From Fructobacillus sp. CRL 2054 (GTDB lineage: Bacteria; Bacillota; Bacilli; Lactobacillales; Lactobacillaceae), in the NCBI RefSeq assembly GCF_028764065.1, contig NZ_JACOFN010000013.1, forward strand, positions 1 through 46,473: 46,473 nt of DNA, given 5' to 3'. The position numbers and the translations under genes were made by a program. Numbering within the stretch: position 1 is the first letter of the stretch; each line of letters opens with the position of its first letter. The notes below the pieces were generated by a model that was not told the DNA's origin, did not search any database, and saw only the letters and a program-made list of their open reading frames with translations. Shown here piece by piece: positions 622 to 46,354 of this stretch.

Positions 622-3600
622 CTAAGTTCGTTGCCAATTACGCATGGCATTATCTTTTGACATTTGCTGATATAGCCCAACCAATGAGCCTGCCTGTCCG
701 CTACCTGCCAATTGTTCCTTATTGACGCCCAAGATGAGTGCCAACAGTGAAATGATTTGGTCAAGTTTTGAGCTGTCAACTGATTGTTGAACTGGTTGCG
801 TTGATCGCGGTTCGCTTGATTGGTTAAGCAAGTTATACCCGTTTGACGCTTGTACGCCAGCGACTGGAATTATTTTGCTTGGGTTGAAATTGTTAATCAC
901 GCTAGACACGTCATATAGCCCATCGTGTGAACCAACAACTCCACCGGTTGCGTACTTCTTAATGCCCTGCTTATCCATGATTCGCTTTGTGTCAGCTCCC
1001 GAATAAATACGAGTTCCGACCGGCAAAGGCATGATGACGTTACGCTGATTAGACATCATCAATTCGCCAGTAGGTAGGTGCATCAACTCTTTCCAGTCGG
1101 GACCAGTTCCATCGTTGACCATAACAATCTGGTTATTTTCCTTGACGATACCACCCATGGCGAAGTGTGGAATCAACTTACCGATTGACTTGCCGACCTT
1201 ACCGATAGTGTCAGAAATGCCCTTAATAATGGATTTGACCTTATTCACGGCCTTTTCTACCGTGGAAGTGATACCGTCCCAGATACTAGTGAACGCACTA
1301 GAAATACCGTTCCAAGCGCCATTCCAGACACTTTCAATGCCATGTACAGCACCAGAAATCACTGACTTCACTAGGTTCATTGCACCACTTGCGACTGATT
1401 TAATTCCACCCCAGATTGAACCGAAGAAAGAAGAAATACCGCCCCAAACAGCGTTCCAAACCACTTGAATACCTTTGACTTCGTTACCGATTAGGGTAGA
1501 CAATGACTTAACAACTGACGACCCAAAGGACTTGATTCCGTTCCAAATACCACTGAAGAATGAGTTAATTCCACCCCATGTGGCGTTCCAAACGTTACCA
1601 ATTGTCTTACATGCGGATGAGATAAACTTACCGATGTTACCCATCACATCGCCAACGAATCCAACAATTCCACCGAACACGCTCTTAATCGTTTTTCCGA
1701 TGTTATTAACTGCATCACGGAATGGCTTAAAGTGCTTGTATGCCTGAACCACAGCCACACCTAATCCGACAACGGCAGCCGCAAACCAAACCATTGGATT
1801 GGCCGCCATAGATACGCCAACTGCTTTAATGGCAACACCTAGCATCTTAAATGCCGGTGCTACCTTTTGCGCGAACATCAGTCCCTTTAAAGCGACAACA
1901 AAACCAGCAATAACACCAGTCAGCACCTTAAAGGTTGTCTTATGGTTCTTAGCCAAGTTGCCAAGTTTATTCAGCAAAGGAATAGCAATTTTAAGGCCAA
2001 CGCCCATGGTTGTTCCTGCTATTTTGGCTGCCGTTCCCATAGCGCTAAAGAAGTTTTGAATATCCTTAGCATGTGCTGCGATGAAATTGGCTAACTTTTC
2101 CACTCCACGGCTTGCTGCATCTGCAAATGTTACAACTGGGTTCTGTCCTTTCTTTCCAAAGGACTTAGAAAATGCACCAAAAATCGTGTTCGCTGCTTTA
2201 TTGACCGAATTACCAAAGCGATTAAAGGCATCATCAACACCTTTACCGTCTAGTGACTTTGACAAGCTGGCAAGCATAGCGTTTGAATTACTAAAGAATC
2301 CCTTAGTAATCTCGCCCGATAACACTTGATAACGGGACTTAAAATGGTTCGTAAAACCATCAAAAGTCTTGTAATAGTTATCCAAGGCCATTGGCTTGGT
2401 CTTGGCTAAGTCGTTCATGGCGTTTTTTACATCGTTCATTGAAATCTTGCCGTTCTTAGCAAAATCATTCAACTGGGTACGTGAAACACCCATCGTCTTA
2501 GCCAATTGGTCACCGAAACCTTTATACTGCTTTTCCATCTTCGTGATAGAACCAGCGTTAATCTTACCGGTTGCGGACATCTGACTAAGCATCTTAACCG
2601 AGTCAGCCATCTGGTCGTCATTCTTTCCGTATGCACGTCCCAAGATTCCCAGTGAGTTTGTCAGCTGTTCAGTCTGCTCCTTGTTTTTCGTGATGCCATA
2701 GGCCGTTTTAGTCATGGCTGCACCGACTGATTCGGTATAACCAGATGTTTCACGAATCTTCTTCACGTTATCCGTCAGTGATGCTGACAGCGCCTTATTT
2801 CCATTGGTAAACGTATCGAAACCGACTTGGATATTTTGCATCGTTTTGTTGTATTCAACACCGGCCGAAACAACCCCTGTGATGTGGCTAGTAACGGTTG
2901 ATAAGGCATTAGTGACGCCACTAGCAACCAAGTTAGCACCCAACATCTTAGCGAATAAATGATTGGTCTTATTGACCTTTTCATTCATCTTATTTAGCTT
3001 TTCGCGTGTCTTGTCGATGCTAGAACTGTTGATTTTAATCCCATGGTTATTCATGGTCTTAATCTCTTTGTTCGCCTCGGCAATCTTGGCTTTCATTTGA
3101 GCAACGCGCAACTCTTGTTTCTTGTACGCCTCCGAGTTTTTATCGCCAGATTCTGACAACTTATTCAACTCGGACTGCTGAATTTTCAAGATGCTGTTTA
3201 AGCTCTCACGGGTCTTTTGCAGACCAGACAACTTAGCCTTATTGGCTTCGTTCGTCTTCCCCTCGGCCTCCAGTGCTTTCACATTGGCATTGGTCATTTC
3301 GGTATTGTGCTGAATGTCGCCATTCAACTTAGACAAACCGGACGACTGATACTTATATGATTCGCTGGCCTTGGATAATTGACCATTGTAGCTATTTAAT
3401 TGCCGTTCAGCTTTCACCAATTCAGCGGTCAAATAGGTCTGCAAGTCCTTACCCTTTTGTGTGTCAGTATTGACATTCCCAAGGGCCGTTTTAAGGCTAT
3501 CGACCTTTTCTTTTTGCTTTGCGACCGTATCAGTCAGTCCATCATACTTGGCCTTAGATGCGCCAACAGCATCCCCTGCTGACTTCATCTGCGCTTCTTG

Positions 3601-26496: not shown

Positions 26497-27573
26497 ATGG
26501 CTAGTATATACAAACGTTCTAACAGTTGGACAGCAAGTGTTTCGATAAAGTTAAATGGACAATACCGCAAGAAAACGAAGTCTGGTTTTCCAACTAAAAA
26601 AGAGGCCGAACAATGGGCTAATGAAAACGAAGTAGCTAAGGCTAAGGGTGTTTTTAACAAGAAAAAACTACTCTTCTACCCCACTATGAAGAAGTGGTAC
26701 GAAGTCTTTAAAGAACCAAAAGTCGCCCGTGCAACTAAAAAATGGTTTGAGGCAGTTTTAAAAATAGTAGAACGCGAATGGCCCAACAAACCAATTGAAG
26801 ATGTCCGAAGTTCAGATTTTCAAGAGTTATTGAACAACTATGCTAAAACCCACGTTAAGGTATCAACTAAGCGTGTTAAAAACATCATCTCGGAGTTTTG
26901 TCGCTATGCCATGGATGAGGAGTATATTACCCGTGATTTTTCACGTAACGTCTACATTAGTGGTATGAAAAAAAGCAAATCAGCTGACATGAAATTTCTT
27001 GAAAGTAAGGAATTAAAGAAACTATTGGCCCGTGCAAAAGCTGGACAAGGTGTTTCATCACGAATGATTGTGACGGCTTGTTACACGGGGATGCGTTATG
27101 CTGAAATAGCTGGACTAACACCAGATGATGTTGATCTAAAAGAACAGACAATATCCATCGAAAAAACATGGGACATGGTCGTCCATCAGTTTAAGCCAAC
27201 TAAAACAACTGGTTCAGTTCGTACAATCTATATTCCAGATGAATTAGTAGATTTGTTCAAAAAGTGGCGATTTGGAAAACGGTTTGTTTTTGAGGGTCAA
27301 GATGGTTTCCCACCGACTAACAATGCCTGCAATAAAACATTGGCTAACTATTTGAAGAAAGATGATTCAAAGCAAGTCACATTTCACGCTCTAAGACACA
27401 CACACGCTAGTTATTTACTTGCGCATAATATATCCGTCCAATACGTTTCCGAGCGTCTAGGACATGCTAACGTGAATATTACGCTAGGTATTTACGCCCA
27501 CCTTTTGGAAGATAAACGAAAGGCCGAAAATCAGCGTGTAATGAATAATTTGAATAATTTGAATAAGTTGTAG
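26497..27573 (+). CDS. int: Phage tyrosine integrase
   Basis: 358 residues. An N-terminal AP2-like arm-binding region (MASIYKRSNSWTASVSI) is followed by a SAM-like core-binding domain (about 60-155) and the catalytic domain with R200 (TGMRYAEI), H297-x-x-R300 (HALRHTHASYLL), H323 (LGHANVNIT) and nucleophile Y333. All five are present, so it should be active. Ribosome site GAAAGTGA. Its att region lies directly downstream. Confidence 0.96.
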   Translation: MASIYKRSNSWTASVSIKLNGQYRKKTKSGFPTKKEAEQWANENEVAKAKGVFNKKKLLFYPTMKKWYEVFKEPKVARATKKWFEAVLKIVEREWPNKPIEDVRSSDFQELLNNYAKTHVKVSTKRVKNIISEFCRYAMDEEYITRDFSRNVYISGMKKSKSADMKFLESKELKKLLARAKAGQGVSSRMIVTACYTGMRYAEIAGLTPDDVDLKEQTISIEKTWDMVVHQFKPTKTTGSVRTIYIPDELVDLFKKWRFGKRFVFEGQDGFPPTNNACNKTLANYLKKDDSKQVTFHALRHTHASYLLAHNISVQYVSERLGHANVNITLGIYAHLLEDKRKAENQRVMNNLNNLNKL

Positions 27574-36392: not shown

Positions 36393-36659
36393 TCAGTCTA
36401 GAACGTCCTTTGTAAAACGCCCCATTGGCTGATAATCATGACGGTCCTTAAACGATAGCGGTGCCGTTTTAACCAAACGCACCTTTTGGTTCTGCTCGGT
36501 TAAAAATACTTGACCTGGACCGATTAACTTACCTTTTGTGTGCTTACCAATCCGCCAGGGATGCTCTTTCTCACCTTCAGCAACATAAAGCTTACCAGAG
36601 GCATCTTCTGTCAAAGGCTGTCCGTATAGAATCGCCGTGTCGTACTTTCCCTTTGCCAT
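36393..36659 (-). CDS. 88-residue protein linked to the CarB-like gene, unknown
   Basis: Begins MAKGKYDTAILYGQPLTED, rich in Lys and Gly, beta-type pattern with WRIGKHTKGKLIGPGQVFL. ATG follows the carB-like TAG after one base, with AGGAG inside the carB end, so it is co-translated. A 7-bp hairpin CTAGACT-AATC-AGTCTAG covers its stop. I do not recognise a family; its constant partner, if any, would be the altered CarAB pair. Confidence 0.7.
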   Translation of the reverse strand: MAKGKYDTAILYGQPLTEDASGKLYVAEGEKEHPWRIGKHTKGKLIGPGQVFLTEQNQKVRLVKTAPLSFKDRHDYQPMGRFTKDVLD

Positions 36660-36660
36660 C

Positions 36661-39177
36661 CTAATTCTCCTGTAAACGAATCATCTTTGCACCCATTTCA
36701 AAACGGGTTGAGTCGATTGGCGAATCAGGCTTCAAATGCAAGTTGAAATCCGTTCGGTCAGAGACCATGGCAAAGTCCGATCCACGCAAAGCTGGCATAT
36801 GCGCAACTAAGGCTTCCAAATCACTGCCATCCAAGCCACCCTTCCAAGAGCGAACAACCAATCGAATCAAAGACAGTTGCAAAATCTTTGACAGGAAGGC
36901 AATTTCACCAAATGGCATTGGCCGTAACCAAGTATCTACGGCAAAATTAGGCAGTGCCACTTCCTTTGGCCAATCCGTCCGCTTCTCACGCCAGATTAAT
37001 TGATAGACGCCAGAGTAAGGTAGCTTAATGCCAGATAAATCAGCATCGAAGACGTCCTGGTCAATCAAACGGACCTCGCCTTCCTGGTGCTGCGTTAGTA
37101 CCAGTGGATAGGCTGCTTCGCCATCGTAAAAGATGTTCAAAGCAAACTCGGATTCATCCGACTCAGGACCGGCTGGCTGATGCTTTTCCTTTGGTAGCAC
37201 AATGACTTTTTGCCCTAAGGCCACTAGAGCTTCAATCAACTTCCGTCGATTACCAGCTACCACGATGGCCTCCGGATGTTCCTGATCAACAACGGCCATC
37301 ACGTCAGAAACTTCCAATGGTTCCAAATACTGCTTATCAGACAAGTGTGGTAACAAGGAGGCATCGGCTGCATTGTTGTTCATAATCACCGTCTTATAAC
37401 CAAGCTTACGTAACTCGGACAAAACAACCGAAGTCACATAACCCGCGGCGGCTCCATCCCCCATTCGGAAGGCCCCTGCCCCAACAAGCAAAATCGACTT
37501 ATCCGAAACGGGCTCGGACTCATTTTCCTCTTCAAAAGTCGCAAAGAACTGGTGGGCGTTTTCAGGAAACTCACCGGCTGATGGCTCCAAGGCTTTATAA
37601 GTCGGAACAACACCAGATTGCTTTGCCATCGCGCGAATCGATTGAAAGTCTGACTGCCAAAAACGAGCCAACAAGCCGTCTGAAAGGCCGGATTGCTTAG
37701 CAACTGAAAGCAATTCCTGGCTGGCTTCGCCATCCACAATCTGACTCTCAATCTTCAACAATTGCTTTAATTGGTAGAAATAGAATTCATCAATCTTAGT
37801 TAATTCAGCCAATTCATCAACTTCGTAACCCCGTCGAAGTGCTTCAACAAGCAAGAGCACACGGTTATCGTGGGGATGAATTAACTGTTGAATTAGCTCA
37901 TCATCTGACACGTTCTTCATGTACTTTGGTGAGAAAGAACGGTTGTTAAAGTGGGCCGCACGAATCGCCTTTTCCATGGCTTCAATAAATGTTCGACCAA
38001 ATCCAAGGGCTGAACCGACGGACTTTTGAATCGAATTCAACTGACGGTTAACTTCAACCCCTGCCGCCTTCAAATCACCAAAAGAGAAAACTGGTAACTT
38101 AACAACAATATGGTCCATTACCGGTTCCATCATCGCTGTTTTAGCGTGATAAGAATCTGGTAATTCTACATCCTGCAGGACACGACCAGCAGCCAACTGG
38201 GCAGCCACCAGCATGACCGGATACCCGGTCATCAAGGCCATTCGATTAGTCAGATTATCCAAGTAAGGCGAAACCTTAATGATGTATAACTGGTTGGTCT
38301 TTTCGTTCAAAGCCAATTGAACGTGAACAGGACCCTGAATGTTCAAAATATTAGCGACTAAGAAAGCCTGCGAGCGCATTTCTTGGAGCACTTGATCAGA
38401 AATCGTTAACACGGGTGCCACGGAGAGTGAATCCGCCGTGTGAATACCGACCGGATCCATATCCTCTGTGGCCCCAACTTGCATACAGTTTCCATTACTA
38501 TCGCGAAGAACCAGAATGGAAATTTCCTTCAACCCATTAATGGCTTTCGAAATCACCACTTCCCCAGTCAAAGACTGAGACATCACCTGATCAATTGCAT
38601 CTTCAAAGTCGTCCAAGCGCCGGACAATTTTCCGTGTCGTCCCTGCCGCTGGGTTGTGTGCACGCACCAGCAATGGCAGCTCTAAATCACGTAAGAGTTC
38701 ATTGGCTTCGGCCTGATTACGAACAATTGTTGCCCTTGGCATTGATAATCCAGCAGACTCCAGGCGTTCAAAAAGTGCCGCAGAATCGTTTAACAATTCA
38801 ACAGTGGAATCAGGCATCCCCAATCCAACTGGACGAGCGCCATCCTCTTCACGCCATTCGGAAATAATCTGCTGCCAGAGCCGTAGCCCACGAATACCAG
38901 CAAATCCAGGAAAAACCGCGTCAATTTGCTTTTCTTTAATGATGGACTTAATGTTTTGAACCGTCAGCGTTGAAACAATGGTCTCCGCCTCTGAGGATTC
39001 CAACGCCATCGAATAAGGGTTATCATCCACCAAAAAGAGACGGTACCCCTGCGACTTTAAAATGGGCAAAACCTGATAAATGGCTGCATCGTTTTCACCC
39101 TGCATACCAAAGTCAGTTTCACCAGCACCCAAGAACAGGATGCGCTTTAAGTTTTCATCAGTTGTTCTTTTGTACAT
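36661..39177 (-). CDS. CarB-like protein, truncated and missing catalytic residues
   Basis: 838 residues; normal CarB has about 1060. The first half is recognisable CarB (CMQVGATEDMDPVGIHTADS at 231-250, GPVHVQLALN at 282-291), but its ATP-grasp ligands are changed: the Glu-Asn-Arg of VIEVNPRxSRSS is Lys301-Ser303-Tyr305, the glycine-rich LGGxGGG loop is PAAGTTRK, and the acidic residue before GWKE is Lys211. Arg172, Glu218 and Gln287 remain. The second half keeps the Rossmann start (LLVGAGAFRMGDG, 564-576) but almost no second ATP-grasp and no methylglyoxal synthase-like domain. No frameshift is present. It overlaps carA by 20 bases. Catalysis of carbamoyl phosphate synthesis looks impossible; regulatory or structural use is inferred. 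Confidence 0.82.
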   Translation of the reverse strand: MYKRTTDENLKRILFLGAGETDFGMQGENDAAIYQVLPILKSQGYRLFLVDDNPYSMALESSEAETIVSTLTVQNIKSIIKEKQIDAVFPGFAGIRGLRLWQQIISEWREEDGARPVGLGMPDSTVELLNDSAALFERLESAGLSMPRATIVRNQAEANELLRDLELPLLVRAHNPAAGTTRKIVRRLDDFEDAIDQVMSQSLTGEVVISKAINGLKEISILVLRDSNGNCMQVGATEDMDPVGIHTADSLSVAPVLTISDQVLQEMRSQAFLVANILNIQGPVHVQLALNEKTNQLYIIKVSPYLDNLTNRMALMTGYPVMLVAAQLAAGRVLQDVELPDSYHAKTAMMEPVMDHIVVKLPVFSFGDLKAAGVEVNRQLNSIQKSVGSALGFGRTFIEAMEKAIRAAHFNNRSFSPKYMKNVSDDELIQQLIHPHDNRVLLLVEALRRGYEVDELAELTKIDEFYFYQLKQLLKIESQIVDGEASQELLSVAKQSGLSDGLLARFWQSDFQSIRAMAKQSGVVPTYKALEPSAGEFPENAHQFFATFEEENESEPVSDKSILLVGAGAFRMGDGAAAGYVTSVVLSELRKLGYKTVIMNNNAADASLLPHLSDKQYLEPLEVSDVMAVVDQEHPEAIVVAGNRRKLIEALVALGQKVIVLPKEKHQPAGPESDESEFALNIFYDGEAAYPLVLTQHQEGEVRLIDQDVFDADLSGIKLPYSGVYQLIWREKRTDWPKEVALPNFAVDTWLRPMPFGEIAFLSKILQLSLIRLVVRSWKGGLDGSDLEALVAHMPALRGSDFAMVSDRTDFNLHLKPDSPIDSTRFEMGAKMIRLQEN

Positions 39178-40237
39178 AATCTACTACCGTTTCGAAGAAG
39201 TCCGCAAAAACCCGCTTTGCTTCAAGTGGCCCTGGTGCCCCGTCGGGGAAAAACTGAACCGAAAAGGCTGGGAAGTCACGGTGACGCAACCCTTGAATCG
39301 AGTTATCCACCATGTCCCGGTGAGTTACGAAAAGCTTCTTTGTGTCCAAAGCGTCTGGGTCAACCACGTATCCACGTCCCTGTCGGGCATAAATCATTTC
39401 TTGCGAAATAATTTCCTGAATCGGATGGTTCATCCCGTGATATTCAGCTGGCAAAGTCGTCAACTCCGAGTTGTTTGCCAGTGCAAAGAGCTCGTGTCCC
39501 AAACCAATACCGAGCATTGGCACCTTTGACTGCAAGACACGAATCAAAGTCAACACTGACTCTGGCAAATCCTCGGGGTTTCCTGGTCCAGTCGACAAGA
39601 TAATACCGTCAGGATCCAAGGTCAATACTTCGTCCACCGAGGTCGTGTATGGCAAAACAGTTACGTTCGCATCATAATCGCCAAGGACACGCAGAATGCC
39701 ATTCTTCAATCCAAAGTCAATTACGACAATGTGGAAACCACGTCCCGGGTTTGAATAGGCCTTCGTCGTTGCTGTATTCTGCACTTGCTTATTAGTCAGA
39801 ACAGTCGCCTGCAACTGATCACGAGCATGGTCATCAACCACGTCGACAATCGTCGCCTTCTGTGAACCGGTTTCACGAAGGTGCCGAATCAACTTACGGG
39901 TGTCCACCTGGTAGAGCCCCGGAATATTGTGCTGCTTCAAAAAACGGTCCAGGTTCATTCGTCGTTGACGGTTAGTCGAAACCTCGGCCAAATCGTGAAC
40001 AATCATGCCTCGAATTTTAGGATTAATGGACTCGTAGGCCTCGGCGTGAATCCCATCAGCTCCAACAACGGGCATGGCAAAAACAATCATCTGCCCATCG
40101 TAAATTGGGTTCGTGATTGTTTCCTGGTAACCAGAGGTCGCCGTATCAAATATAATCTCACCAAAGGTTGTCGCTGGTGCGCCAAATCCTTGGCCTGAAA
40201 AAACTGTCCCGTCTTCTAGAATCAGATGCCGTTCCAT
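39158..40237 (-). CDS. CarA-like protein with lost glutaminase triad
   Basis: 359 residues, normal length for carbamoyl phosphate synthetase small subunit, with typical N-terminal domain (SGYQETITNPIYDGQ at 35-49, VDTRKLIRHLRETG at 111-124) and STGPGNPEDLP (215-225). The GATase active site is destroyed: GICLGHQ reads GIGLGHE (Cys to Gly245) and QYHPE reads QFFPD (His to Phe330, Glu to Asp332). All three triad positions are altered, yet the frame is open and well preserved. GGGG precedes the ATG, 35 bases after pyrR. Not able to hydrolyse glutamine by the known mechanism. Confidence 0.88.
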   Translation of the reverse strand: MERHLILEDGTVFSGQGFGAPATTFGEIIFDTATSGYQETITNPIYDGQMIVFAMPVVGADGIHAEAYESINPKIRGMIVHDLAEVSTNRQRRMNLDRFLKQHNIPGLYQVDTRKLIRHLRETGSQKATIVDVVDDHARDQLQATVLTNKQVQNTATTKAYSNPGRGFHIVVIDFGLKNGILRVLGDYDANVTVLPYTTSVDEVLTLDPDGIILSTGPGNPEDLPESVLTLIRVLQSKVPMLGIGLGHELFALANNSELTTLPAEYHGMNHPIQEIISQEMIYARQGRGYVVDPDALDTKKLFVTHRDMVDNSIQGLRHRDFPAFSVQFFPDGAPGPLEAKRVFADFFETVVDYVQKNN

Positions 40238-40272: not shown

Positions 40273-40800
40273 TTAGTGAACGATTTCAACTTCGTCCACG
40301 TCATCAATCTCCTTCACACGCACTTGAATCTTTTCGTTTTGCGCAGTTGGAATGTTCTTCCCAACAAAGTCGGCGCGAATTGGTAATTCACGGTGTCCAC
40401 GGTCAATCAAAACCGCCAATGAAATCGTCTTTGGACGGCCGATTTGAATCAAAGCATCCAAAGCCGCACGAGTTGTACGTCCGGTAAAGAGCACGTCATC
40501 AACAAGAACAATGTTCTTATCGATGATGTTGACACGGTCGTCTTCGTCCAATCCCAACTTGGTATGGTTACTCAATCGGTCATCTCGGTAGTCGGAAATA
40601 TCAATGGCCATCACCGGAATCTTAACGCCTTCCAGTTGTTCCAAACGGTCAGCAATTCGGTGTGCCAAATACTCACCACGGGTTTTTACACCGACCAAAA
40701 TCAAGTTCTGGCCACCCTTGTTGTGTTCCAAAATTTCATAAGTAATTCGCGTTAGTGCGCGTTGCATGGAAGCTTGGTCTAAAACGATTTTGTTAACCAT
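40273..40800 (-). CDS. pyrR: PyrR, bifunctional pyrimidine operon attenuator/UPRTase
   Basis: 175 residues, full length. The PRPP motif [14 protein letters not shown] (97-110) is exact, and the RNA-binding [10 protein letters not shown] region (70-79) is present. PyrR binds pyr mRNA when UMP is high. No PyrR binding loop with terminator is visible before carA in this window, so its target is probably elsewhere. AAAGGAG before the ATG; 30 bases after rluD. Confidence 0.95.
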
Positions 40801-40830: not shown

Positions 40831-41745
40831 TTATTGTTCTTTACGTAATGCTTTTAATACTCGTTCGAATGTTGCGGGTAATTCTGAATCAAAAGTCATC
40901 TTTTCGCCCGTGCTTGGCTGTGTTAATACCAAAGTCTTAGCGTGTAATAACTGGCCCTTCAGTTTAATATCGGCAATTACCTGCTGGTGACCATAGGTTG
41001 AATCACCAACTACTGGGTGTCCAATATATTGCATGTGGACACGAATTTGATGTGTTCGCCCAGTTTCCAAGGCTAGCTTCAAAAGTGTATAACCATTGAA
41101 ACGTTCCAAGACTTCAAAATGAGTCACCGCATCACGGCCACCAGGAACAACCGCTTGTTTCTTACGGTCCTTTGGATGGCGACCAATTGGTGCATCCACC
41201 GTTCCCTTATCTTCCTTGAATTCACCACGCACCAAAGCGTAGTAATAACGTTCCGTTTTGTGGGCTTTCAATTCGGCAGCCAGTGCTTGATGAGCCTTGT
41301 CATTTTTGGCAACCATTAGTAAGCCCGACGTATCCCGATCAATCCGGTGTACAATTCCTGGACGGAACTCCCCGTTAATCGTTGACAGTGGTGCATGGTA
41401 GAGCAAGGCGTTCACCAAGGTCCCAGTCGCGTGCCCAGCAGCAGGATGTACAACCATTCCCTGTGGTTTATTCACCACAATTAGGTCATCATCTTCATAA
41501 ACAATATCAAGCGGAATGTTCTCCGCTTCGATGGCTGTCTCCTTCGTTTCAGGCACCGTAATGGTTATCTCGTCACCAGCCTTGGCCTTATAAGAGGACT
41601 TCACTTGCTTCCCGTTAACTAAAACGGCTCCTTCTTTAATCCAGGTTGCCAAAGTCGAGCGTGAATGGTCAAGACCAGCGTTTACCAATGCCGCATCCAG
41701 ACGCTTACCGCCCTCCTTAATTGTGATTTGCTTACTGTTGCTCAT
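40831..41745 (-). CDS. rluD: RluD-like 23S rRNA pseudouridine synthase
   Basis: 304 residues. An N-terminal S4 domain (KRLDAALVNAGLDHSRS) and the catalytic HRIDRDTSGLL motif with Asp138 are intact. Acts on helix 69 or a related rRNA site in this family. Overlaps the EbsA gene by 14 bases; pyrR follows. Confidence 0.93.
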   Translation of the reverse strand: MSNSKQITIKEGGKRLDAALVNAGLDHSRSTLATWIKEGAVLVNGKQVKSSYKAKAGDEITITVPETKETAIEAENIPLDIVYEDDDLIVVNKPQGMVVHPAAGHATGTLVNALLYHAPLSTINGEFRPGIVHRIDRDTSGLLMVAKNDKAHQALAAELKAHKTERYYYALVRGEFKEDKGTVDAPIGRHPKDRKKQAVVPGGRDAVTHFEVLERFNGYTLLKLALETGRTHQIRVHMQYIGHPVVGDSTYGHQQVIADIKLKGQLLHAKTLVLTQPSTGEKMTFDSELPATFERVLKALRKEQ

Positions 41746-43709: not shown

Positions 43710-46354
43710 CTACTTTTGCTTCCGCTTCTTAGTTTTTACAAATCCAAAAGCAGCTGCTGCCATTGCGGAAAGTGCCACCATCGCACGGTTTCCACTGACA
43801 TTATCTTGCTTAGCCGTTGCAGGTGAAGCAGCAGATGAATCTGCACCACCCCGCTTCTTCATTGCTTCAAGAGCTGCCAATTCTGCTTCCCGCTTTGCAC
43901 GTTCAGCATCTTCAGCCGCCCGTCGGGCAGCATTGGCATCAGCATCTGAACCACCAGAGTGGTCGCCACCATTACCGTCATCGTTACCGCCACGGTTGTC
44001 CGGATTATCTCCGCCACCACCGTTATCGTTATCACCACCGCCACCTGATGGATTGTCACCAGACTTTGGTAATGGTAATTGTGCAATCTTATCCAAAGCT
44101 TCTTGAACCGCTGCGTCAATTTTATCGTGTGTATCAGCCGCATCAATCTTAGCATCCGCGTCTTCAACGATTGCCGCTAGGTCCTTTTCAATTTCATCTC
44201 GTTCACCAGCATTCGCATTTGGAACAGCATCGATAGCAGCCTTCTTTTCTTTGGCCGCCTCAGCAACTTCCGCCTTTGCCTTTTCCTTATCGTCATTAAC
44301 GACTGGAAGACGGTCAGGGTCATCAACCGCTTGAATAACGAAGATAATAACGTTCTTCACTCGAGTTAATTCACCAAGAGTCTTTGAGGCATCCAGAGCA
44401 GATAGGTTATCGTTAATAATCTTATCAACCTTTTGCTTCTGACGTTCCAAGCTTTCTGGATCAACATGGTCAATCTTATCGAAAGACTGCTTCTTTTCGT
44501 CCCCAGCTTGCTGTACAGCTGTATTTGCTTCCGCAAGGTCCTGCGCTGTTGCCGGGCGATGGTCACGGTCCAGCTTTGGAGACTCAACCGCATTAATTGC
44601 TTCTTCACCTGCCAAGAGTACTTGGTTCAAACCAGCAATGGTTTGCGCTCCAGCAATCTTTTCTTGGTAAAGAACCACCGTTTGGTCAACTTCAAGCTTT
44701 TGAGCAGCTAAGGAATCACTTTGTGTACCAATAATGTTATCGAAGTCAGACTTCTTCGTTTCAGCAACACGCTTCAGCTGCTCAATAGCCTGATCGCGAT
44801 CCTGCTGGCTTGGCGTCTGGTAGTCACGACTCAATGCTGGCTTTTCGACCGCCATAATTTCGGCACGGGCAACCTTCATTGCTGGTGCCAATTCTTGTCG
44901 TTGTACCAATGCCATAATCGTCGTCTTAACTCGACCGAATGTATCCTGTAAAAGTTGCTTTTGCTTAGCCAGTGAATCAGGATCAACACCAAGAAGGTGT
45001 TCAAATTCATCAGTCCGCTCACTAACCAGCTTTTCCAACTCGGATACAGCCTGCTCTTTTTCAGCATCCGTCAAAGATTGGTAACCATCTTCAACATCTG
45101 GTCGAGCCACTGCTTGGATAGCAGATAAGGCATCAACCAAGTTCTTCTGTAAATCAGATTGGGTTTGACTATCTTGAATAATCGACTTTTGCTTTCTCAA
45201 CGTCTCAGTTAATACCTTGATTTGACGGTCTAATGACTGAGCATCAACGTGGACAATTGATTCGAAGTCAGCACGCTTATTTTCTGCTGCCTTTTCTAGA
45301 GATGAAATAGCCATTGCAATCTCTTCCTTACTTGGATGGTCATCCTTTGGCAATACATCTGGGAATGGAATGTTATAGAGGTCTTGAACAGCCTTATTCA
45401 CGATGGCGTTTAGCACCAAATGTGTCTTTGCTTGACTAAACAATGGAATTCGTTCCTTAACTAACTGATCAACTTCCGCCTTTCGCTGAGCCAAACTATC
45501 TGGATTTACCCGTGCCATATGGTTGAAGATATACTTACGGTTATCACCATCCCAAGTCAAACGGTTTGTCGCTGCCTTAATATCCAAACTTGTTGGTGTC
45601 TGGTAGTCATATTCCAGCTCAGGAGTTGGAACTGTGTCAATCAAACCAATGTATTGACGATACTGGAAGATAACGAACCAATTCGTATCTGCCTTTTGAA
45701 TAGCATTTTGACCCTTAGTTAAAATATCCTGCATAATGTCAAGTTCTTCTTTTAGACTAACTTGGCTAACATGTTCAATGGCCTCAAACTTCTGCTTCTT
45801 TTCATCAGCATAGCGCTGGAGCATTGCCTTGTAGATATCCTTCATCTCTTGGCTAGCCGGTTGGTCAGCTGGCTTAGCCTTTGGTGCAGGCACTTGAGAA
45901 ATATCCATAATTGCCTTACTAATCAAGCCATCTAATTCACTCTTCGTGTTTGCATTATTAATATCTTCCGTGGCTTTATCTACGATTGCATCAACACGGT
46001 CCATCTGTTGCTTCAATGAACCCTGGTCAACATAAGGAATTAGTGTAAACTCTTCTTTCTTAGTTCGACCAGCAACAACAACCTGACTAGTTGCTGATCG
46101 CTTGTCTTCAGGTGTAATTGGTTCGAATCCTGCGGATAAGGCTGGCTCCTTAACGGCATTAATTGATTGGATAGCCGATGTCAAAGTCTGATCAACACTA
46201 CCACGTGTTGCAGAAGCTTGAATATCATCCGCTGCCTTTCCTTCAATCGTCCGAACCTCTTCTGTTTGCTTCTTCAAGCTAACAGGGTCAACGTGTTCAA
46301 TGGCCTCGAAACGCTTAATCCGTTGGTCAGCAGCTTGATACAGTAGTGCTCGTA
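43710..46354 (-). pseudogene. Repeat-rich surface protein (DUF1542-like), 5' part removed by an insertion sequence
   Basis: The open frame runs from the IS end (46354) to 43710, about 880 residues, without a proper start or signal peptide. It holds eight helical repeats of about 85-95 residues, each marked by a FxxIxHVDPxSLxxQ-like block (for example FDKIDHVDPESLERQ) and YQTPS/DDK...A linkers, as in DUF1542/Ebh-type surface proteins. A Gly/Asp/Asn-rich wall-spanning segment follows (about 44130-43930 in DNA). The C-terminus has a hydrophobic stretch and KTKKRKQK tail like a sortase substrate, but LPxTG is replaced by SPATA. The N-terminal part must lie beyond the IS, outside the window. Confidence 0.8.

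Follow-up and report, generated by a model that had tools for sequence, protein, structure and literature searches.

Why should a bacterium keep an intact gene for the small subunit of carbamoyl-phosphate synthetase (CPSase; CarAB, or PyrAA-PyrAB) after the residues that hydrolyse glutamine have been lost? The question is raised by a 46,473-nucleotide stretch of the Fructobacillus sp. CRL 2054 genome (GCF_028764065.1, contig NZ_JACOFN010000013.1; hereafter the window), in which an earlier note, made from the sequence alone, had described a CarA with every residue of the glutaminase triad changed in an unbroken frame. We name this catalytically dead CarA-like protein pCarA, and the CarB-like protein encoded beside it, likewise dead, pCarB. 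Our comparisons indicate that a whole two-subunit biosynthetic enzyme apparently turned non-catalytic once and was then kept across much of Lactobacillaceae. The features concerned, with the evidence for each, are:

39158..40237, minus strand: pCarA, catalytically dead CarA-like protein of 359 residues (open reading frame (ORF), domains, residues, model)
39503..39505, minus strand: codon for Gly245 in the motif GIGLGHE, replacing the nucleophile Cys269 (alignment)
39248..39250, minus strand: codon for Phe330 in the motif QFFPD, replacing the catalytic His353 (alignment)
39746..39850, minus strand: pCarA residues 130-164, a linker gaining conservation in the dead clade (12 of the 23 gained sites)
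36661..39177, minus strand: pCarB, dead, truncated CarB-like protein of 838 residues, overlapping pCarA by 20 bp (ORF, family scores, residues, model)
38275..38277, minus strand: codon for Lys301 of pCarB, replacing Glu299 (basic in all 47 rows: 43 Lys, 4 Arg)

The frame of pCarA is open over 359 codons, as had been claimed, and the single chain carries both CarA domains over cut-off (Pfam PF00988 and PF00117), also exceeding the cut-offs of the NCBIfam models TIGR01368 (345 vs 307 bits) and NF009475. E. coli CarA chains are structural matches of its predicted model (pLDDT 79.6), with TM 0.90 by query to 1cs0_B. Cys269, His353 and Glu355 have catalytic roles in E. coli CarA. Aligned to that protein (locus L046, our reference for CarA numbering), Cys269 has become Gly245, His353 Phe330, Glu355 Asp332 and Gln273 Glu249, so that the Cys and His substitutions of the earlier note stand. 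Three residues that we take to belong to the glutamine site have changed as well (S47 to I, N240 to T, N311 to G), with H312 to R beside them.

We then asked how general these changes are, using G-numbers for sampled genomes (G000 is that of the window), L-numbers for fetched loci, and genus bins (g2, g5 and so on) for groups of genomes. The dead-CarA residue set had 47 rows, assembled from batches of 9, 20 and 18; L010 and L081 are the same locus, leaving 46 distinct loci. The last batch came from 20 fetched regions, two of which, L161 and L162, contained normal CarA and were moved to the comparison set. (In these two the normal-type CarA is accompanied by CarB as two ORFs, of 853 and 207 or 903 and 148 residues, possibly a frameshift or sequencing error.) Functional-type CarAs numbered 36, all except that of E. 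coli chosen by a Cys-containing motif, and 10 further normal-type CarAs missed by that motif were read afterwards; Cys was found in all 46, a count to be read with that choice in mind, and Cys and His together in 10 of the 10 added ones. The dead CarAs have Gly at the Cys269 position in 46 of 46 distinct loci, and at the His353 position Phe in 36 rows, Ser in 9 (one row a duplicate), Leu in 1 and Asn in 1, never His. The Cys and His that a glutamine-hydrolysing CarA requires are therefore missing from all 46 distinct loci. An assembly error at the catalytic codons was ruled out, because the same Cys-to-Gly change recurs in every one of them. The third triad position is another matter: Asp stands at 355 in 30 of the 36 functional-type CarAs and in 9 of the 10 more (39 of 46), including the normal CarA of the same genome. 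Since Asp is the norm there in functional CarAs, Glu355 to Asp is not a loss, and the claim of a fully altered triad reduces to two losses, both of them clade-wide, and a third change that working enzymes share.

The earlier note had considered CarA only, and its partner proved to be dead too. pCarB falls below the large-subunit models (TIGR01369, 423 vs 1027 bits; NF003671, 421 vs 599). Its residues were compared over 47 dead rows (46 distinct) with 24 working CarBs, at the positions that we take to be the metal and phosphate residues of the two ATP-grasp sites. Glu299, presumably a Mg ligand, is replaced in every dead row, by Lys (43) or Arg (4), and is present in 24 of the 24 working CarBs; Arg303 is never Arg in the 47 dead rows, and Arg129 is Arg in one. 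At the second site, Arg675 and Arg715 lie inside deletions in 47 of 47, Gln829 and Asn843 are altered in 47 of 47, and Glu841 is Glu in 1 of 47. This second ATP-grasp domain is cut down and hard to align: Glu761 was Glu in 0 of 29 rows in one alignment and in 19 of 47 in another, and it was not counted, since the outcome depends on the alignment. The allosteric (MGS) domain is gone, no more than 19 of its 137 positions aligning in any of the 47 rows. What remains of the first ATP-grasp is a basic residue at Arg169 in 47 rows, His243 in 44, Glu215 in 43 and Gln285 in 41, and only 46 of 385 near-invariant CarB columns are still kept. The CarB fold is nevertheless predicted to survive (AlphaFold model, pLDDT 83.9, pTM 0.87; against E. 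coli CarB, Foldseek gives TM 0.84-0.85 by query), and the two genes adjoin or overlap in 47 of 47 rows (-158 to +11 bp, first-start ORFs). Compared with CarAB (E. coli 1JDB, 1C30), the pair thus shares both folds (TM by query 0.90 and 0.84-0.85) and lacks Cys and His in one subunit and, in the other, Glu299, the allosteric domain and part of the second ATP-grasp. Because the partner CarB is dead as well, the two are read here, on residues and domains, as a putative pseudo-complex and not merely as a CarA without glutaminase.

There is a precedent in animals, the ammonia-dependent CPS1, for a CPSase whose amidotransferase domain is dead, and pCarA resembles that domain in lacking the catalytic Cys; CPS1 chains are among its structural matches. 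A CPSase of this kind, using ammonia with a working synthetase, is nonetheless a very improbable reading of the pair and one that we reject by sequence: CPS1 keeps its synthetase active, and in the pair the synthetase half would be dead too, by residues as well as by domains.

The pair is no peculiarity of the window. Its closest named pCarB match is from F. durionis (98%), the pCarA protein of G004 is identical to that of the window, and intact dead CarA without internal stops occurs in 13 of 13 genomes of the Fructobacillus genus bin, in line with the view that this is not decay. A profile of the pCarB C-terminus (315 positions) was searched over 397 Lactobacillaceae genomes; among the matches listed (at least 150, part of them read individually), all cover at least 263 of the 315 positions, in frames of 763-906 residues without a stop, in 15 genus bins. 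When 40 genomes from the remaining 25 bins were searched in turn, 19 genomes in 6 further bins were added; coverage was partial in bins g4, g28 and g38, for each of which individual loci were read and the pair confirmed. Of the 40 Lactobacillaceae genus bins, at least 21 thus have the pair, at the ancestral lspA-rluD-pyrR locus, which disposes of a Fructobacillus-only oddity. The pair was not found in the other 19 bins, with one or two genomes sampled per bin, nor in 103 Lactobacillales genomes outside the family, where among the matches listed there was nothing beyond a 113-position match to a normal CarB.

The 47 dead CarA rows form one clade (100/100 support; midpoint root only), which branches among the pyr-type CarAs of other Lactobacillales and not with arginine-type CarAs or the working CarAs of Fructobacillus. 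We examined eight regions surrounding normal CarA in genomes without the pair. Four retain the order rluD-pyrR-permease-pyrB-pyrC-carA-carB, three from other families and one from Lactobacillaceae (G036). In all but one of these lspA was called too; the permeases, and the pyrC of G036, were assigned by eye. The other four have the operon with different neighbours or are cut by a contig end. The dead pair sits at the place of this operon, with the middle genes gone, and keeps its carA-carB order. Sequence, synteny, tree and substitution rates together support the view that the pyrR-linked pair is a remnant of the ancestral Lactobacillales pyr operon, from which a permease gene, pyrB and pyrC were lost between pyrR and carA. 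Most simply, catalysis was lost in both subunits once, early in Lactobacillaceae; the loss of catalytic residues, as these alignments have it, is ancient and not local to the window.

An ancestral operon position from which the other pyr genes have gone is also where a neutral relic or decaying pseudogene might be expected, and the substitution record speaks strongly to the contrary. Eleven genomes of the Fructobacillus bin have both a dead and a live CarA, giving 55 pairs; the dead protein was the more conserved in 54 of them (mean identity 0.897 vs 0.719), evolving more slowly than its live counterpart in these cells. The ratio of nonsynonymous to synonymous substitution rates (dN/dS, Nei-Gojobori) was 0.002-0.059 in 26 pairs, dS being saturated in the other 29, so the proposal that selection maintains a CarA without glutaminase residues holds. 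Add the lack of internal stops among the listed pCarB matches, and a relic is hardly credible; we reject it. Mean identity among the Fructobacillus loci was 0.917 for pCarA, 0.893 for PyrR, 0.789 for RluD, 0.775 for pCarB and 0.687 for the DUF7671 protein described below. Homology to an enzyme, loss of catalytic residues and selection at the protein level, which define a pseudoenzyme, are all found here, and this dead CPSase is, on such evidence, almost certainly retained by selection.

Retention could still serve a working enzyme. The genome of the window does contain the second, normal carA that the earlier note had asked after (G000:C23:60139-61194), inside an operon like pyrB-pyrC-carA-carB-pyrD-pyrF-pyrE, with gene names assigned by reading ORFs; dead and normal CarA coexist in many genomes, and the retained folds could permit mixed complexes. 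It is still improbable that the pair serves the normal CPSase of the same cell, as its regulatory subunit or as a decoy. We checked 30 pair-bearing genomes, 27 picked for lacking the normal CarA motif and 3 in which it is present: 17 had pCarA only, 12 had both, and one (G031) had pCarA with a partial normal CarA. Among the 17, where the pair is intact, PyrB was over cut-off in just one (G223) and not in the other 16, and five (G007, G009, G220, G070 and G035) had no match at E<=0.001 to the PyrB model, a model that in other genomes detects weaker relatives too. In G007 and G009 there was a single match to the pCarB profile. The genomes checked are 93-100% complete by tables, and for that reason single gene absences are not proof; taken together, these cases lead us to reject the strict helper form, and the five without a PyrB match count also against a CPS1-like enzyme. 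Unlike CarAB, then, the pair has been retained by genomes in which neither normal CarA nor PyrB was found. Fungal CAD-type proteins carry non-catalytic dihydroorotase-like domains, which likewise represent a dead pyrimidine enzyme kept for assembly; those domains support active neighbours, whereas the pair persists without a detected normal CarA.

If not help for a working CPSase, a different reaction might be what is selected, the ATP-grasp and amidotransferase folds being reused around a new active site. The kept parts of the first ATP-grasp, the conservation of CarA Gly241, Pro242 and Gly243 in at least 95% of rows and the strong purifying selection would suit such a new enzyme. We regard it as unlikely, given Lys or Arg for Glu299 in every row, the loss of Arg129 and Arg303, a truncated second site, and conservation of the ATP-grasp well under that of live CarB (0.54 vs 0.83 for the first domain). 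A present role that is non-catalytic, as a regulatory or scaffolding complex, is in our judgement probable. In pCarA, 23 sites are newly conserved at 90% or more in the dead clade relative to working CarAs, and 12 of them fall within residues 130-164, that is, in 35 of 359 residues (P 7e-8, for a segment chosen after inspecting the data); this linker is variable in the working enzyme.

The neighbours offer a candidate partner. The remaining features of the locus are:

40273..40800, minus strand: pyrR, the sole PyrR found in this genome (NF003548 over cut-off)
40831..41745, minus strand: rluD-like pseudouridine synthase gene, a conserved upstream neighbour (motif match in other loci)
36393..36659, minus strand: gene for a DUF7671 protein of 88 residues, directly downstream of pCarB (PF24710)

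An ORF resembling the DUF7671 protein also follows the pair in the Leuconostoc-like loci L077-L080, with an FbpA/RqcH-like gene in most others, by reading.

The window pyrR is the single match in G000 at E<=1e-20 (genome 91.8% complete). Directly upstream of the pair, pyrR was found in 37 of 47 rows, or 36 of 46 distinct loci (36 rows by script, plus L087, where PyrR was seen under a longer start). PyrR is thus the best candidate partner of pCarAB in most lineages, an assignment that we make tentatively. PyrR sites over cut-off occur in G045, G220, G035 and G026, four genomes in which pyrB does not reach its cut-off; the ORF after the site reads as a uracil permease in G035, and likewise in G318, where the site is below cut-off. 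Sites over cut-off also precede ORFs like MFS transporters (L233, L236; G045, G210), which may point to a transporter not yet recognised as PyrR-controlled. At the pair locus itself, the PyrR leader (Rfam RF00515) had no match at gathering score in the window, L227, L010 or L009, and none with E<=1 in L227, L010 or L003.

We envisage that pCarA and pCarB would still assemble through the CPSase interfaces and the oligomerisation domain, and that a vestigial pocket of the complex might hold a small-molecule ligand. The signal would pass through the newly conserved linker of pCarA to a partner, which in most lineages may be the co-encoded PyrR, controlling pyrimidine uptake or synthesis by RNA attenuation.

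Several observations weigh against this scheme. The conserved linker is modelled at low confidence. The oligomerisation domain of pCarB is relatively conserved (0.57, vs 0.64 in live CarB), but the second pre-ATP-grasp domain equals it at 0.57, so that the argument for assembly is only a relative one. Within Fructobacillus, pCarB changes faster than PyrR and pCarA. Searches of four Fructobacillus genomes and of G070 (best score there 33 bits) gave no convincing PyrR site. Finally, pyrR is not between rluD and pCarA in bins g2 and g5 (10 of 10 loci). The universal pyrR link that we had expected is ruled out by these two bins, and PyrR is not an obligate neighbour; the four g2 or g5 genomes searched for PyrR (G052, G086, G313 and G160) all have one elsewhere, and in G086 and G313 an additional PyrR is encoded close to the normal carB, some 8-15 kb upstream of the pair. 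The PyrR link is accordingly graded as suggestive, and as weakened by g2 and g5. The persistence of the pair where pyrR has left the locus, with the relative conservation of the oligomerisation domain, would agree with a pure structural scaffold or chaperone, having neither ligand nor PyrR link. That reading seems to us rather doubtful, since pyrR adjoins the pair in most distinct loci and the kept amidotransferase (GATase) loops could form a pocket.

The regulatory form of the non-catalytic role can be carried furthest in G259. A single visible difference separates its pyruvate oxidase from PDB 4fee across the 603 matched residues; we take 4fee to be the Lactiplantibacillus plantarum enzyme, and G259 accordingly to be L. 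plantarum. G259 has two PyrR genes, 64% identical: the first belongs to the pyr operon, where there is a PyrR site, and the second lies outside it, directly upstream of pCarAB. The second should be PyrR2 by elimination. A whole-genome search gave a weak RF00515 match just upstream of it (E 0.376, 25.3 bits), which we treat as noise. An L. plantarum PyrR2 study reportedly names the working genes pyrAa1 and pyrAb1, a naming which implies that its authors knew of a second pair. PMC3582564, citing other work, describes PyrR2 as responding to inorganic carbon. pCarAB could conceivably be the missing sensor of inorganic carbon in lactic acid bacteria, a CPSase remnant still binding bicarbonate or a related CPSase ligand and signalling to PyrR2, thereby tuning the pyrimidine genes of L. 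plantarum to carbon dioxide; we think this unlikely, and the loss of Arg303 with a basic residue for Glu299 in 47 of 47 dead CarB rows counts against survival of the original bicarbonate pocket. With a candidate partner now placed beside PyrR2, inorganic-carbon sensing in L. plantarum becomes testable. We found no published role for a pair downstream of PyrR2 in the open-licence literature, and no prior description of a dead CPSase in lactobacilli in the same literature, including text from PMC7911632, PMC3582564 and PMC3250461; an earlier account in the L. plantarum PyrR2 work is possible.

Because pCarA passes curated small-subunit models, an additional carbamoyl-phosphate synthetase is likely to appear in the annotation of genomes that carry the pair, and metabolic models built on it would go astray on pyrimidine and arginine auxotrophy.

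Other observations lie apart from the pair. Positions 622-27573 of the window read as a prophage-like run (a tape-measure-like ORF of 1032 residues, with terminase-, protease-, capsid- and helicase-like ORFs) that includes an integrase-like ORF at 26497-27573, and positions 43710-46277 as a surface-protein-like ORF of 855 residues that contains numerous similar repeats and has a basic tail at its C-terminus. In L041, near a normal pyr operon, a tRNA and then a T-box leader (below gathering score) lie at 2696-3229, upstream of an amino-acid-permease-like ORF.

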